A DNA stretch of 64,000 nucleotides from Gemmatimonadetes bacterium 2013_60CM_65_52 (GTDB lineage Bacteria; Gemmatimonadota; Gemmatimonadetes; Gemmatimonadales; Gemmatimonadaceae): contig NGFI01000005.1 in NCBI GenBank assembly GCA_002215645.1, positions 860,678-924,677 of the forward strand, given 5' to 3'. The notes beneath the pieces were generated by a model. That model worked only from the letters and a program-made list of their open reading frames with translations, made no database searches and was not told the DNA's origin. This document shows, one piece after another, positions 3,379 to 23,069 of the stretch. Each line of letters opens with the position of its first letter. Positions within the stretch are counted from its first letter, which is position 1. Both the position numbers and the translations under genes were made by a program.

Positions 3379-4259
3379 TCGAGGTTCTCGACTTGTTCGC
3401 GCATGCGCTCGAGCTCTTCCTTGACGAGCAGCACCTCGCGCACGATTGCCGCGTCGTTGCCCTTGCTGCCCGTCGTGTTGGCCTCGCGAAGCATCTCCTG
3501 GAGCAGGAAGCCAAGCCGCTTGCCGACACCGTCCGGCTGCGGCGACGCGAGCGCGCCCCGGAAAGCATCGATGTGCGCGTGAAATCGGGAGAGCTCTTCC
3601 TTCACGTCCAGCCGGTCGGCGAGGAGCGCGATTTCCTGGGCGAGACGGGACTCGTCGACGGATACGCCCTCCGACAGCTCGCGCACCGCGGTCCGCAGGC
3701 GGTCGCGCTGCTCGATGACACGGGATGGTGCGCGTTCGGCAATGCGGTCCAGGGCGACCTCGATGATCGCGAGGCGCTCGACGAGAAACGCCACGAGACG
3801 CGTGCCCTCGGCTGCCCGCATCTGGAGCAGTGCTTCCACCGCCTTGTCCACCACCGCAATGACCTGAGGAAGAGCCTCCGCCGTAAGCTCTTCGCGCGCG
3901 TTGGACACCATGAGGTCGGGCAGACGGAGCATCGTCGCCAGATCGAGGGACTGGCCGAGCTCGTACTTGGCTTCGAGCGCCCGTAACTGGGTCACATACG
4001 CCGCGAAGCGCGCCTCGTCGAGCGGCAGGGCGCCGTTTGATTCGACGTCGCGCTCGAACCGGGCAAACAGCGTGACGTGGCCGCGGGAAACACCTCGCCG
4101 CATGGCCTCGCGCACGTCGCCCTCCCACCGCGCAAGCACGCCCGGGAGCTTGATGGACGGACTGAAAAACCGGTGGTTGACGGAGCGAACCTCGACGCTC
4201 ACGCGACCACTGCCGACCTCGCCTTCCGCGGCGCCAAAACCAGTCATGCTCCGTATCAT
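3375..4259 (-). CDS. yicC: YicC/YloC family endoribonuclease
   Basis: A 294-residue member of the YicC family, implicated in RNA turnover in enterics and Bacillus. It opens with the diagnostic MIRSMTGFG and continues with VEVRSVNHRF and KLPG; the C-terminal half carries GKRLGFLLQEMLREANTTGSK (residues about 248-268), typical of the DUF1732 domain. It overlaps gmk by a GTGA junction, the conserved yicC-gmk pairing. The function is assigned from family knowledge only. Confidence 0.92.
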   Translation of the reverse strand: MIRSMTGFGAAEGEVGSGRVSVEVRSVNHRFFSPSIKLPGVLARWEGDVREAMRRGVSRGHVTLFARFERDVESNGALPLDEARFAAYVTQLRALEAKYELGQSLDLATMLRLPDLMVSNAREELTAEALPQVIAVVDKAVEALLQMRAAEGTRLVAFLVERLAIIEVALDRIAERAPSRVIEQRDRLRTAVRELSEGVSVDESRLAQEIALLADRLDVKEELSRFHAHIDAFRGALASPQPDGVGKRLGFLLQEMLREANTTGSKGNDAAIVREVLLVKEELERMREQVENLE

Positions 4260-13476: not shown

Positions 13477-14046
13477 CTATAGCGGCGGCTGAACTGCCAA
13501 TGAGTCGGCTCGCGCCTTGAGGAGCTCCTGGAGACGACGCCGCAACTGTTCCTGAAGCGCCATGTACTTGGCGCGCTGGAGCGGCGTCATGAACGCCCCC
13601 CACTCCCTCTGCTCCTCTGCCAGCATCTCCACGCGCTGCCGCTGGATCTGGTGAATCTGATCGAGCGCGGCCGCGATGGTCGCCTGATTGGCCGCCGAAT
13701 CCGCGACAATTTCACCGCGCAACGTCTCGCGCTGCGCCCGCTCCTGCTGATTCAGCGCCCGACGACGAACGTCGTATCGCTGGCTCACCTGCTCGAGGCG
13801 CGTCATCTGCTCGTCGGTGAAACCGATGCGGGTCTTCGCGACCTGCCAGAGCTGCTGCCTGATGCGCTGTTCCACCATCTGACGCTGCGCACCCCCGCCC
13901 AATCCGGCTGGTTGGCGAGGTAACGGCTGGCGTGGAAAGCCCGGCCGCGCAGCACGTGGACGCGCCTCGTCCTGCGCGCGGAGCGAGGAGACCCCCGACA
14001 TGGCAAGCGCCGCTGAGAGTCCGGCGACAAGCAATGCCCGCGTCAT
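13477..14046 (-). CDS. small secreted helical protein, possibly Spy/CpxP-like
   Basis: 189 residues with a signal peptide (ALLVAGLSAALAMSGVSSLRAQ), a proline/arginine-rich linker and a long, charged, glutamine-rich helical region. Segments such as FTDEQMTRLEQVSQRYDVRRRAL and FMTPLQRAKYMALQEQLRRRLQEL recall the paired LTxxQ-type helices of Spy/CpxP periplasmic proteins, but the exact motif is absent, so the family is uncertain. It overlaps the anti-sigma gene by ATGA, placing it in a sigma/anti-sigma operon. A periplasmic sensor or folding role is an inference from that context. Confidence 0.7.
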   Translation of the reverse strand: MTRALLVAGLSAALAMSGVSSLRAQDEARPRAARPGFPRQPLPRQPAGLGGGAQRQMVEQRIRQQLWQVAKTRIGFTDEQMTRLEQVSQRYDVRRRALNQQERAQRETLRGEIVADSAANQATIAAALDQIHQIQRQRVEMLAEEQREWGAFMTPLQRAKYMALQEQLRRRLQELLKARADSLAVQPPL

Positions 14047-14573
14047 CGGACGCTCCGCGGCGACATCGGCGACATCGACGAGGGCTCCAGGTCGGCGGCG
14101 GGCAGAACGTCCATTGACTGAATGTCCTCGAGCAGTTTCGCGAGATCCCGGTCGCTGAGCTCATTCAGCGATCCGCCTCCCACGGCCAGCTCGCGCGTCG
14201 GCGTAGAAGATGGGACGACCACCTGCTGCGCCACTTCGGCGGAATCTTCCAGCGACGACGCGCCGCGGCGCGCGACGATGAGCGAGCTGCTGCCCGCGAC
14301 GATCAGCGTCACCGCGGCCGCCGTGCGCCAACCCACCCAGCTCCGTCGCGTTGCCGGCTGGTACCGCGGAATGGCCGCGCTCACGGCATGAAGATCGATG
14401 TGCGGGGTCACCTGCATGGTCGCACGAAGATCGCGCAACAGGTCGAGCTCCACGCGGCACTCATCGCAGTGCAGCAGGTGCGCTTCCACCCGCGCGCGCG
14501 TCACGGCATCGAGCCGCCCGTGCAGCAGGTCGGGAAGCAGATCACGAACGTCGCCGTTCGGACAGTCATTCAT
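14043..14573 (-). CDS. zinc-finger anti-sigma factor
   Basis: 176 residues. The N-terminal cytoplasmic domain has the zf-HC2 pattern HLLHCDEC (H-x3-C-x2-C, about residues 32-39). A single TM follows (AAAVTLIVAGSSSLIVA, about 85-101), then a serine/acid-rich periplasmic tail. This is the standard architecture of ZAS-type anti-sigma factors. It overlaps the sigma gene by 8 nt and the following secreted-protein gene by ATGA, so all three are probably made together and the sigma factor is held at the membrane. Confidence 0.85.
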   Translation of the reverse strand: MNDCPNGDVRDLLPDLLHGRLDAVTRARVEAHLLHCDECRVELDLLRDLRATMQVTPHIDLHAVSAAIPRYQPATRRSWVGWRTAAAVTLIVAGSSSLIVARRGASSLEDSAEVAQQVVVPSSTPTRELAVGGGSLNELSDRDLAKLLEDIQSMDVLPAADLEPSSMSPMSPRSVR

Positions 14574-15120
14574 CGAGAAACTCCTTGATGGCCCTCATCG
14601 CGTTGTGATAATGAACGCGCGCGGCGCCCTCCGTCGTGCCGGCCGCGTCGGCAATTTCCTTGTACGACAACCCTTCACCCACCCGAAGCATGAACACCTC
14701 GCGCTGTGTCTTCGAGAGCCGTTCGAGCGCCTGGTTCATCCGCCGCCGAGTCTCATTGGCCACCAGCGAGTCCAACGCGTCATACTCCGTCGAAGCATCG
14801 TGCTCCTGCACTTCCACCTGCTCTCCGCGCCGGCGCTCGGACCGCCTGCGGTCGAGCAACAACCGCTTCGCGATGGTGAACAGCCACGTCCTGAGCGAAC
14901 TGTCACCCCGGTACGTGTCGAGCGACGCGAAGGCCCGCACGAACGTATCCTGCACCAACTCCTGCACGTCGCCTTTCGCGCCCAGACTGGCCGCGAACCG
15001 CGCAACCGCAGGCGCGTGTCGGTCCACGAGCAGCGTTGCCGACCGCTGATCACCCCCTTTCCACCGGGCGATGAGGTCGAGGTCGGTACGTTCATCAGCA
15101 TCGAGAGCCGGATCGGTCAT
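14566..15120 (-). CDS. ECF-family RNA polymerase sigma factor
   Basis: About 184 residues from the ATG at 15118-15120. Region 2 is seen as DVQELVQDTFVRAFASLDTYRGDSSLRTWLFTIAKRLLLDRRR, and region 4 as LSKTQREVFMLRVGEGLSYKEIADAAGTTEGAARVHYHNAMRAIKEFL. An in-frame start 24 codons upstream is possible but adds residues outside the conserved domain. The cognate anti-sigma is directly downstream. I could not assign an autoregulatory promoter with convincing spacing. Confidence 0.88.
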   Translation of the reverse strand: MTDPALDADERTDLDLIARWKGGDQRSATLLVDRHAPAVARFAASLGAKGDVQELVQDTFVRAFASLDTYRGDSSLRTWLFTIAKRLLLDRRRSERRRGEQVEVQEHDASTEYDALDSLVANETRRRMNQALERLSKTQREVFMLRVGEGLSYKEIADAAGTTEGAARVHYHNAMRAIKEFLDE

Positions 15121-15219
15121 CCGGTCCGCAGAGTTGGACGTGATGGAAGGGCCACTGTTAAGGGTGTTCACAGGGCGAATGGCGAATAACATACAGACGC
15201 GCCTGCACAGCTATCCCCC

Positions 15220-20055: not shown

Positions 20056-20649
20056 ATGACGCGATCCCTCCGCCTCCTGACTGACCACGACGGTCCGCCT
20101 ATTCGCGGAGAATCGGCCGCGTCCGCCCGTAACCTCCTCGTCCGCGAAGCGCGCAACGGGGACGTCCGCGCGTTCGCCGCCCTGGTGGACGGATACTACG
20201 CCCGCTGCCTCCGGTTTGCCCTCCACATGCTGGCCAACCGCTCCGACGCCGAGGAAGCCGTTCAGGATACGTTCATCCGAGTGTACCGTGCCCTGCCCAA
20301 GTACGAGGAGCGCGAAGCGTTCGAGCCATGGCTCTTTCGCATTCTCGCCAATCGGTGCCGAAGCGCGGGCGCTCGTGAAAAGCGGCGGTCGCAGTTCGTC
20401 GAATATGGCGACGTGCCCGAGCGCGGAGTGCACCCAGGACTGGACGAGGCGATCGTCTGGCGCGAAGAGATCGGTCGCGCGCTCGCCGCGCTGCCGGTGG
20501 AACAACGTGAGGCCTTCCTGATGCGGCACGTGGAGGATCTCAGCTACGAGGACATGTCCGTCGCCACCGGAGCCGGCGTGTCCGCGCTGAAAATGCGGGT
20601 GAAGCGGGCGTGCGACTTTCTGCGCGTTCGACTCGAGGAGACGGAGTGA
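20056..20649 (+). CDS. ECF-family RNA polymerase sigma factor (head of the CBM48 operon)
   Basis: 197 residues. Region 2: LVDGYYARCLRFALHMLANRSDAEEAVQDTFIRVYRALPKYEEREAFEPWLFRILANRCRS; region 4: ALPVEQREAFLMRHVEDLSYEDMSVATGAGVSALKMRVKRACDFLRVRL. It is the first of four genes with 1-nt spacing or overlapping junctions. The second gene has the topology of an anti-sigma factor but lacks a zinc motif. A possible ECF promoter lies 33 nt upstream. Confidence 0.88.
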   Translation: MTRSLRLLTDHDGPPIRGESAASARNLLVREARNGDVRAFAALVDGYYARCLRFALHMLANRSDAEEAVQDTFIRVYRALPKYEEREAFEPWLFRILANRCRSAGAREKRRSQFVEYGDVPERGVHPGLDEAIVWREEIGRALAALPVEQREAFLMRHVEDLSYEDMSVATGAGVSALKMRVKRACDFLRVRLEETE

Positions 20650-20650
20650 G

Positions 20651-21238
20651 ATGAGCGAGGATGACGTGTTGATGGACCGAATCGCGGACGAGCTGCGCGT
20701 ATTTCCGCACGTGGACGGCGAAGCGAAAGCCCGTTTGCTTGTCGCGGTGGCAGCCGAACGCGAGCGCACCCGCACGCTACGTGAACGAGGTTGGCGCTGG
20801 TTCACTCCGCGAATTGCCGTCGTCGGCCTGGCCGCCGCCGCTGTGCTGGCCGTGTATCTTCGCACGGCACCGCCGGCCTCGTCCCCGGTGGAGCGTGCTC
20901 CGGTGGCGGAGGCTCGACGCCCAGCCGCGACAGTCGCAGCGTATGACGCCTCCACTGCGGACATGGCACCTCGGCCCATACAGCTCGTGTTTCGCGCTCC
21001 GTCCGCCTCGCAGGTTCGCGTGGTTGGTGATTTCAACGGGTGGGACAAGAATCAGGTGCCCATGGCGCGCGACTCGGCGAGCGGCCTCTGGAGCGCGACG
21101 CTGATGCTGCGGCCTGGCCGACACGTCTACGCGTTCGTGGTGGACGACACGCTGTGGATGCGCGACCCGCGCGCCGAGCGTGCACCGGATGCCGACTTCG
21201 GGCGCCCTGGTTCCGTGCTCCTCGTCGGCAAGCCGTGA
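20651..21238 (+). CDS. membrane-anchored protein with periplasmic CBM48/AMPK-type glycogen-binding domain, possible anti-sigma
   Basis: 195 residues. Residues 1-50 are charged and cytoplasmic (VLMDRIADELRVFPHVDGEAK), 54-70 form one TM, 71-105 are a proline/alanine linker, and 108-193 match the early-set glycogen-binding fold: VFRAPSASQVRVVGDFNGWD, SGLWSATLMLRPGRHVYAFVVDDTLWMRDP and ADFGRPGSVLLV. Position and topology resemble an anti-sigma factor, but the HxxxCxxC zinc motif is missing. The binding domain would be outside the cytoplasm, which is unusual for a glycogen-type module. It starts 1 nt after the sigma stop and overlaps the next gene by GTGA. Confidence 0.75.
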   Translation: MSEDDVLMDRIADELRVFPHVDGEAKARLLVAVAAERERTRTLRERGWRWFTPRIAVVGLAAAAVLAVYLRTAPPASSPVERAPVAEARRPAATVAAYDASTADMAPRPIQLVFRAPSASQVRVVGDFNGWDKNQVPMARDSASGLWSATLMLRPGRHVYAFVVDDTLWMRDPRAERAPDADFGRPGSVLLVGKP

Positions 21239-21933
21239 ACATCGTTCGGGTATCAAGATTGTTGGCGCTCGCGACGTTGCTCGTCGTCGCACGCCGCACG
21301 GAAGCGCAACAGATCGCCTACGCCGCCGACCTCGGCGCCGAGATGGACAGTGTGTCGCGTGCGTCCATCACGCGCGAGATCACGCTCGCGCGCGATCGCG
21401 GACTTCCGGTGGAGGCGCTCGTGGCCAAGGTGCGCGAGGGACGGCTCAAGCGCGCGAATGGCCTGCGAATCCATGTGGCGGTGGTAGCGCTCGCGCGGCG
21501 ACTCGACAGTGCTCGAGCCGGACTTGGCCCCAACTCCACCCCGGAGGAGCTGGCCGCCGGGGCGGATGCGATTGCGGTGGGCGGTGACGTCTCGTCGCTG
21601 CGCACGTTGCGCGCGGCCACCACACGCTCTGTGGCGGCGCCGGTCGGCACGTTCGCGCAACTGTTGGCGAGCGGCGTGGAAAGAGCACGCGCGTTGACGA
21701 TGGTCGTCAATCTGCTGCACCGAAACGCGACGCCGGCACAACTGCTGGCACTCGGCAATCTCGTCGAGTCCGATGTCGTGGCGGGCATCCGGCCGGACGA
21801 AGCCGCGGCGTTCCGACTGCGCGCCATCGAGGGCATGTCCATTCTGTCCGGTGACAAGGTGGAGGTAGCCGCGCCAGCACCCGTGACGCAGCCGCCAGCC
21901 ACACAGTCGCAGCCGCCCAAGCGGCGACCATGA
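21235..21933 (+). CDS. secreted helical protein of unknown function (CBM48 operon)
   Basis: 232 residues from the GTG at 21235-21237, which begins a signal peptide (RLLALATLLVVARRTEAQQ) and overlaps the preceding stop as GTGA. The mature protein is helical, with two related stretches: ITLARDRGLPVEALVAKVREG and VERARALTMVVNLLHRNATPAQLLALGNLVESDV, the latter followed by GIRPDEAAAFRLRAIEGM. The C-terminal tail is proline/alanine-rich. I recognise no family. It sits between two genes encoding CBM48-like domains and overlaps the next by ATGA, so a common extracytoplasmic role is inferred. Confidence 0.65.
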   Translation: MNIVRVSRLLALATLLVVARRTEAQQIAYAADLGAEMDSVSRASITREITLARDRGLPVEALVAKVREGRLKRANGLRIHVAVVALARRLDSARAGLGPNSTPEELAAGADAIAVGGDVSSLRTLRAATTRSVAAPVGTFAQLLASGVERARALTMVVNLLHRNATPAQLLALGNLVESDVVAGIRPDEAAAFRLRAIEGMSILSGDKVEVAAPAPVTQPPATQSQPPKRRP

Positions 21934-23069
21934 CGGCGGGAAAACTCGCCGGCCACGTGCGGAGCGGCCTGCTCATCCTCGCGATGGGCAGGCCGCTCGC
22001 CGCACAACAGCGCGTTGTGGTTGATGCCGCCGTCACCGCAGCGCATTTCCCCGATGACAATGCAACGGCAGTCGGGCCGTCGGTTCGCTTGTCGGCCATT
22101 GCGGTGACAAACCGTTTCAGTGCGGCGGCTGACGGCGGCGCCATTGCGGCGTTGGGAGCAACGAGTGGCTTTGCGAGCTTGCGCGGCGCAGTGCGCGCTG
22201 GCGGTGTCATGGGGTGGTCGTCGTCGGTGGACGCGGAGTTCTCCACCGTCGCGGGATCGAGCCACTCCGGCGCCGCCAGCACCGGGCTCGCTGGACTGCG
22301 GGCCATGTGGAACGGCGCGACGTCCGGCGCGTGGCTGCGGGGCGTGACGCACACGTCCTCACGGGAGAATACGTCGCTGAACGGAGCCGGAACGGACGCC
22401 GGGGCCTGGTACGCGTGGGAGAGCGGAACGATCACAGCGAGCGCCACGCAAGAATGGACGCGAGCCGAACTCTACACGGGGCGGTTCAGAACGGGATTCG
22501 TCGGCACTGTGCCCGTGAAATACAGTGAGGCGAACCTCTCGCTTCATTTGACGGACGATCTCGCAAGCCTGGATGCGACGTCGACGGTGAGACGAGATCG
22601 CGACGCGCCGCGTGAAATCGACGCCGCGTACTCTGCAACGGCCGCATTCTGGACGAGCGATCGAGTCGCGCTCGTGCTCAGCGCGGCGCATCAACTTCCG
22701 GACTGGATCCGCGGGGCGGACGCTGCCGACGTGGTGAGTGTCGGCGTGAGGATCCGCCAGTGGGCGCCCATCCGGGAGCGCGCCGCGAGAATGCTGCCGA
22801 TCGTGCAGCTGACTGATTCGGCGGCGGGCGCTGGGCTGCGCGTTCGCGCGGCCGGTGCACGAACGGTTGATGTCATGGGCGACTTCACGGGCTGGGAGGT
22901 TCAGCCACTCGTCCGTAACGGCGACGTCTTCGAGCGCGCCATCCGCCTCGCGAGCGGATCACATCGCGTCCTGCTGCGCATCGACGGCGGCGCCTGGCGG
23001 GCGGCAGCAAACACGCCGCTCGTCGATGACGATTTCGGCGGCAAGACGGGCTTGCTGGTCGTGCCCTGA
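21930..23069 (+). CDS. outer-membrane-like protein with C-terminal CBM48/AMPK-type domain
   Basis: 379 residues. Signal peptide to about residue 25 (LLILAMGRPLAAQQ). Residues 30-285 contain many alternating short strands (SVRLSAIAVTNRFSAAADGG, SVDAEFSTVAGSSHSG, WYAWESGTITASATQEWTRAELYTGRF), as in a small beta-barrel. Residues about 290-379 carry a second glycogen-binding-type domain (ARTVDVMGDFTGWEVQPL, ASGSHRVLLRIDGG, VDDDFGGKTGLLVVP), clearly related to that of the second gene in the operon. Combining a barrel-like region with this module suggests surface glucan sensing or binding. Convergent with rng. Confidence 0.65.
   Translation: MTAGKLAGHVRSGLLILAMGRPLAAQQRVVVDAAVTAAHFPDDNATAVGPSVRLSAIAVTNRFSAAADGGAIAALGATSGFASLRGAVRAGGVMGWSSSVDAEFSTVAGSSHSGAASTGLAGLRAMWNGATSGAWLRGVTHTSSRENTSLNGAGTDAGAWYAWESGTITASATQEWTRAELYTGRFRTGFVGTVPVKYSEANLSLHLTDDLASLDATSTVRRDRDAPREIDAAYSATAAFWTSDRVALVLSAAHQLPDWIRGADAADVVSVGVRIRQWAPIRERAARMLPIVQLTDSAAGAGLRVRAAGARTVDVMGDFTGWEVQPLVRNGDVFERAIRLASGSHRVLLRIDGGAWRAAANTPLVDDDFGGKTGLLVVP

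Follow-up and report, generated by a model that had tools for sequence, protein, structure and literature searches.

In a 64,000-nucleotide stretch of the genome of Gemmatimonadetes bacterium 2013_60CM_65_52 (contig NGFI01000005.1; hereafter the window), we identified a four-gene operon that probably acts as a trans-envelope switch for an extracytoplasmic function (ECF) sigma factor. The operon lies on the + strand at 20056–23069 of the window and runs in the order S-T-H-B. S is the ECF sigma factor, T a single-pass membrane protein with a CBM48 domain (CBM, carbohydrate-binding module), H an exported helical protein and B an exported barrel protein that also carries a CBM48 domain. S would be held by T, the CBM48 domains of T and B would form a signalling pair, and S would be released through proteolysis.

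S (20056..20649, ATG start, 197 aa) contains sigma regions 2 and 4 (Pfam Sigma70_r2, 3.8e-16; Sigma70_r4_2, 4.3e-13). A 1-nt gap separates it from T (20651..21238, 195 aa), the putative anti-sigma factor. T and H (21235..21933, GTG start, 232 aa) overlap by GTGA, and H and B (21930..23069, ATG start, 379 aa) overlap by ATGA. A first-pass annotation made from the sequence alone had given the same four open reading frames (ORFs), coordinates, strand and junctions, all of which we verified in the sequence.

Conservation of the operon was examined in 79 loci, comprising 76 fetched neighbourhoods, the window and two further loci of the source genome, nearly all chosen by similarity to T alone. The loci were annotated with hidden Markov models (HMMs) derived from S, T, H and B of the window, and gene orders were assigned by script. 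S and H were each detected by their own HMMs in 75 of the 79 loci. The order was S-T-H-B in 41 loci, S-T-H in 14, B-S-T-H in six, B-H in four and S-T-H-B-H in two, the remainder being rearranged, fused or cut. S lay directly 5' of 69 T-type ORFs. The 11 ORFs without S in this position, sorted by eye, consisted of eight truncated B ORFs or frame artefacts, two T at contig ends and one rearranged case; the sole complete T among them (locus L114) has S two genes downstream. The 4.2-Mb source genome encodes 32 Sigma70_r2 genes, so that by chance at most ~1% of genes would have one directly 5'. The association of S with T is not due to chance. The first-pass annotation had staked its proposal on the CBM48 identity of two domains and on a gene order shared by relatives; we looked at both and found the domains matching, as detailed below, and the order conserved.

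T and B also occur together at the genome level. T homologues were present in 50 of 60 related genomes and, at E<=1e-8, in 197 of 298 Gemmatimonadota genomes. B was found in 47 of the 60, every one of which carries T. None of the 10 genomes that lack T has B, and the three with T and no B are assemblies that are 71–89% complete. These counts for T and B ignore relatedness. Besides the window operon, the source genome has S-T-H as a three-gene copy (C3:139.6 kb) and B-H as a two-gene copy with no sigma factor (C3:50.5 kb). All four AMPK1_CBM matches above cut-off in this genome are members of the S-T-H-B, S-T-H and B-H operons; a fifth match, below cut-off, falls in a 678-aa frame that looks like a branching enzyme. 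A fifth conserved gene was sought in the flanks of the loci and none was found, the flanking genes being clade-specific housekeeping genes. The motif GGAAC-N15-18-CGT was not enriched 5' of S (4 of 76; shuffled mean 2.1, maximum 6), and we therefore claim neither autoregulation nor a regulon.

T is most likely itself the anti-sigma factor that holds S off. By sequence reading, its cytoplasmic N-terminus (residues 1–50; 20651..20800) precedes a transmembrane helix at about residues 55–70 (20813..20860), and an Arg-rich stretch before the helix places the N-terminus inside and the C-terminus outside. Most Gemmatimonadota T share this short form, with ~50 residues before the membrane helix; T of Nitrospira, Eisenbacteria and deeper Gemmatimonadota have long-form N-termini. 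Searched against 177,635 distinct PDB sequences, the long-form N-terminal profile returned RsiW (E 1.7e-4), MucA and RseA as its top three matches. With the transmembrane segment removed the order was the same, RsiW scoring 2.4e-3 and Escherichia coli RseA ranking sixth. Profiles of the short form (A9) and long form (A8) matched each other (hhalign 1.6e-8), partly through the membrane segment, and it is only through the long forms that the short form of the window is linked to class I anti-sigma factors. The zinc motif Hx3Cx2C is intact in the outgroup T of a Chitinispirillaceae genome (L184) and also occurs in T of a deltaproteobacterium (L174), there with an in-frame stop upstream (~4060–4140) that reflects a sequencing error or a decayed gene; the motif is absent from T of the window. 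Because the long forms match RsiW, MucA and RseA and outgroup T keep the zinc motif, T is read as an anti-sigma factor, and we infer that the window protein is a reduced class I member. The first-pass annotation had T replacing the anti-sigma factor, which is thus better stated as T being one; its view of T as a single-pass negative regulator stands. It had also set T against the zinc anti-sigma factors usually paired with ECF sigma factors. T of the window indeed lacks zinc ligands, yet some 44% of class I anti-sigma domains are zinc-less, and zinc is commonly lost within groups of anti-sigma factors (PMC7406223).

The extracytoplasmic domain of T (about residues 110–192; 20978..21226) matched both CBM_48 (6.3e-9) and AMPK1_CBM (8.6e-9) above the curated Pfam cut-offs. 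In B, the C-terminal domain (residues 291–378; 22800..23063) matched AMPK1_CBM above cut-off (8e-8) and CBM_48 below it; across the B family, 48 of 54 members matched AMPK1_CBM when matches were counted at E <= 1. These results bear out the earlier description of an ECF operon with two extracytoplasmic CBM48/AMPK-type domains. A comparison of the two window domains showed them to be related (31% identity, E 4e-7), and both contain the two glucan-stacking Trp residues. The first Trp, that of GDFxxW, occurs in 100% of T and 96% of B sequences, and the second, after VDG, in 72% of T and 93% of B. Glucan binding by these domains is plausible, though only these stacking Trp are conserved. Elsewhere, CBM48 is found on ParA-type ATPases and on a subtilase, so that docking may be a further role of the domain.

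An AlphaFold2 model of B, built from a 54-sequence alignment (mean predicted local distance difference test score, pLDDT, 89.9), contains 14 strands in residues 28–276 (22011..22757), followed by a short helix and the C-terminal domain. The closest structural match of the barrel was CymA (Z 21.2, root-mean-square deviation 4.0 over 249), followed by OmpG (Z 19.9), both of which superposed on it at 5–12% sequence identity. The prediction for B is therefore an outer-membrane barrel of 14 strands with a periplasmic CBM48 domain. In an even-stranded barrel with an N-terminal signal peptide, it is well established that both ends are periplasmic; with 14 strands and such a peptide, the CBM48 of B would lie in the periplasm, facing that of T. 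The earlier assignment of the last gene as a surface partner thus needs correcting, since the domain after the last strand is expected in the periplasm and not on the cell surface. That B transports cyclodextrins does not follow from a CymA-like fold. H, which begins with a signal peptide by sequence reading, was modelled by AlphaFold2 as an all-helical protein of ten helices (pLDDT 88.9), and it matched no Pfam family, no PDB sequence and no PDB fold (Foldseek E<=0.001). Although the tail of H is otherwise variable, 35 of 74 members have (K/R)P as their last two residues; the window protein ends in KRRP (21925–21933).

The system extends beyond Gemmatimonadota. In a wider scan with one genome per species, annotated with the same four HMMs, S-T-B-H was found in one genome each of Eisenbacteria (L162) and Myxococcales (L172), S-T-H in the deltaproteobacterium L174, and S-T plus an overlapping frame matching H in the Chitinispirillaceae locus L184. 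A Bipolaricaulota genome (L161) has S-T. In four loci of Nitrospira type (L153, L154, L155 and L158), the gene between S-T and H encodes a short protein that combines CBM48 with a lipobox-like signal. The barrel is replaced there by a lipobox-type protein, which again supplies a second anchored CBM48. The usual core thus comprises the sigma factor, T and H, together with a further CBM48 protein of barrel or lipoprotein type.

We favour the trans-envelope switch because the Fox and RsgI systems provide precedents and because the same three positions are filled here, with a CBM48 pair. At rest, T in the inner membrane would hold S through its short cytoplasmic anti-sigma domain. The CBM48 domains of T and B, both in the periplasm, would act as the signalling pair, either by direct contact or by way of an alpha-glucan-type ligand, let in or held by B, for which they compete or which they share. 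H may be an accessory to them in the periplasm. A change at B, whether through ligand, loss or misassembly, would open T to regulated proteolysis; the source genome has genes for site-2-type proteases. Proteolysis of T would free S to transcribe its targets. T would in this way read the state of B, probably as modulated by alpha-glucan. In its fullest form, the proposal is a phylum-spanning signalling system in which a homotypic CBM48 pair, formed by T in the inner membrane and a porin-like barrel or lipoprotein in the outer, relays an alpha-glucan signal over the periplasm to the ECF sigma factor with H as a new component; this we put forward only tentatively.

Several observations count against the switch as proposed. 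The short-form N-terminus of T, the type found in the window, had no anti-sigma match in the PDB. Pfam zf-HC2 matches in long-form T were only weak, and, with too few sequences, no significant match was obtained between the long-form T profile and four local zinc anti-sigma factors. At the positions of two AMPK ligand residues, lysine (column 103) and asparagine (column 133), most sequences carry something else, and retention of the asparagine is lowest in B. Fourteen S-T-H loci have no adjacent B, and no conserved carbohydrate gene was found beside the operon in the flanks of the surveyed loci.

Some of these points would suit an RsgI-like arrangement, in which T alone senses periplasmic alpha-glucan and B is a co-regulated maltodextrin-type porin whose CBM retains sugars. 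S-T-H loci without an adjacent B are as expected in that case, as are the conserved stacking Trp in both domains, the cyclodextrin porin CymA as the best fold match of B and the polysaccharide binding of the outside CBMs of RsgI (PMC4711584). However, at the genome level B is almost never apart from T, no genes for glucan degradation or transport lie beside the operon, and similarity of barrel fold says nothing about function. We regard sensing by T alone as unlikely, though it is the strongest competitor of the switch.

The absence of conserved sugar genes and the partial loss of AMPK ligand residues would fit an RpoE-like sensor of envelope stress or outer-membrane assembly, in which CBM48 is purely a protein–protein module and the system reports whether B is folded, missing or mislocalised. 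MucA and RseA, the next matches after RsiW, are anti-sigma factors of envelope-stress sigma factors, and the occurrence of CBM48 on ParA-type ATPases and a subtilase indicates a widely used domain. Both Trp residues are nevertheless strongly conserved, and in Nitrospira the outer-membrane partner may be a lipoprotein and not a barrel; we consider such a stress sensor somewhat less likely still. It is very improbable that T is a co-transcribed membrane structural protein with S controlled otherwise, for although its ~50-residue N-terminus lacks a direct match, the adjacency of S and T is near-invariant, the long forms match anti-sigma factors, outgroups keep the zinc motif and hhalign joins the short forms to the long.

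Variants of the locus and other CBM48 fusions were also observed. In L063 and L107 (S-T-H-B-H), a second H-like gene lies directly 3' of B. A single 713-aa ORF spans H and B in L075 (4043–6184, – strand), and a single ORF spans S and T in L057 (5986–7290, – strand), probably owing to a frameshift close to the 3' end of S. In L006 (9635–15872), an orphan B-H pair is divergent from a neighbouring ECF sigma factor, which is followed by a zinc-type (HxxxCxxC) anti-sigma factor and exported proteins. ParA-type ATPases with a C-terminal CBM48/AMPK1_CBM domain occur in Phycisphaerae (L178:967–2157, 4e-10; L180:2336–3622, 3e-11) and probably also in L203 and L211, including a Nitrospirota genome; we know of no earlier case of such a fusion to a cytoplasmic ParA-type ATPase. 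A subtilase (Peptidase_S8) with a C-terminal CBM48 occurs in Acidobacteriota (L202:3283–4746, and probably L175).

The window itself contains a second ECF sigma factor of ordinary type (14566–15192), ~5 kb from the operon and within a – strand group at 13477–15192. Its partners are a canonical zf-HC2 anti-sigma factor (14043–14573; Pfam 1.1e-9) and a small secreted protein, so that a zinc-type anti-sigma factor and the zinc-less T contrast within the same window. In the close relatives L040, L041 and L044 this sigma factor was found ~2 kb from the four-gene operon. A search of the window for RNA elements returned a single tRNA and nothing else.

Since the arrangement recurs through the whole phylum and beyond, S-T-H-B is probably a widespread route for reporting cell-surface events to genes. 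It is present in about two thirds of the sampled genomes of Gemmatimonadota, an abundant and little-studied soil phylum, and at least five further lineages contain relatives of it. Most of what is known of trans-envelope sigma signalling comes from STN-bearing TonB receptors; if the switch is real, it would represent a second, independent design that uses a porin-type barrel and paired carbohydrate-binding modules. It would also give a testable function to four families usually labelled 'glycogen-binding domain protein' or 'hypothetical', and the operon offers a test case for extracytoplasmic CBM48 as a sensor versus a protein-docking module.

The first-pass annotation knew of no described system with this plan, which was too strong a statement: FecIRA has the same plan, and RsgI proteins carry a CBM outside (PMC9249621, PMC4711584). 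A literature search returned no description joining CBM48/AMPK1_CBM with an anti-sigma or ECF sigma factor, although the main ECF reclassification paper, which may mention one, lay outside its coverage. Among systems pairing an ECF sigma factor with a single-pass class I anti-sigma factor, SigW–RsiW, AlgU–MucA and RpoE–RseA resemble S–T; T differs in its outside CBM48 and in its partners B and H, and T of the window is in addition shortened and without zinc ligands. B shares its strand number with Klebsiella CymA and with OmpG, and differs from both in the added C-terminal CBM48. The biomass-sensing SigI–RsgI systems of Clostridium thermocellum resemble the operon in having an anti-sigma factor with a transmembrane helix and an outside CBM that binds polysaccharides (PMC4711584), but they are Gram-positive systems with a SigI-type sigma factor, an RsgI_N domain, modules of the CBM3, CBM42, PA14 and GH10 types and no outer-membrane partner; the RsgI N-terminal domain had no Pfam match in T.

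The closest parallel is cell-surface signalling through an ECF sigma factor, a single-pass anti-sigma factor and an outer-membrane barrel (PMC9249621). FoxA uses its signalling domain to bind the STN domain of FoxR and shields FoxR from proteolysis until the signal arrives (PMC11637429). As in FecI–FecR–FecA and FoxI–FoxR–FoxA, the operon encodes an ECF sigma factor, an adjacent single-pass putative anti-sigma factor and a predicted outer-membrane barrel, and the same periplasmic domain type appears on anti-sigma factor and barrel, namely STN in Fec/Fox and CBM48 here. Unlike the 22-strand TonB-dependent receptors with a plug, B is a predicted 14-strand porin-type barrel in which Pfam matched no STN domain and the model contained no plug. 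Its putative signalling domain is C-terminal, H is extra and T has a putative class I-type short anti-sigma domain. The operon is not a member of FecIRA signalling, having neither STN nor a TonB receptor, nor of the RsgI group, having no RsgI_N; by analogy, it would work like FecIRA and have one idea in common with RsgI.

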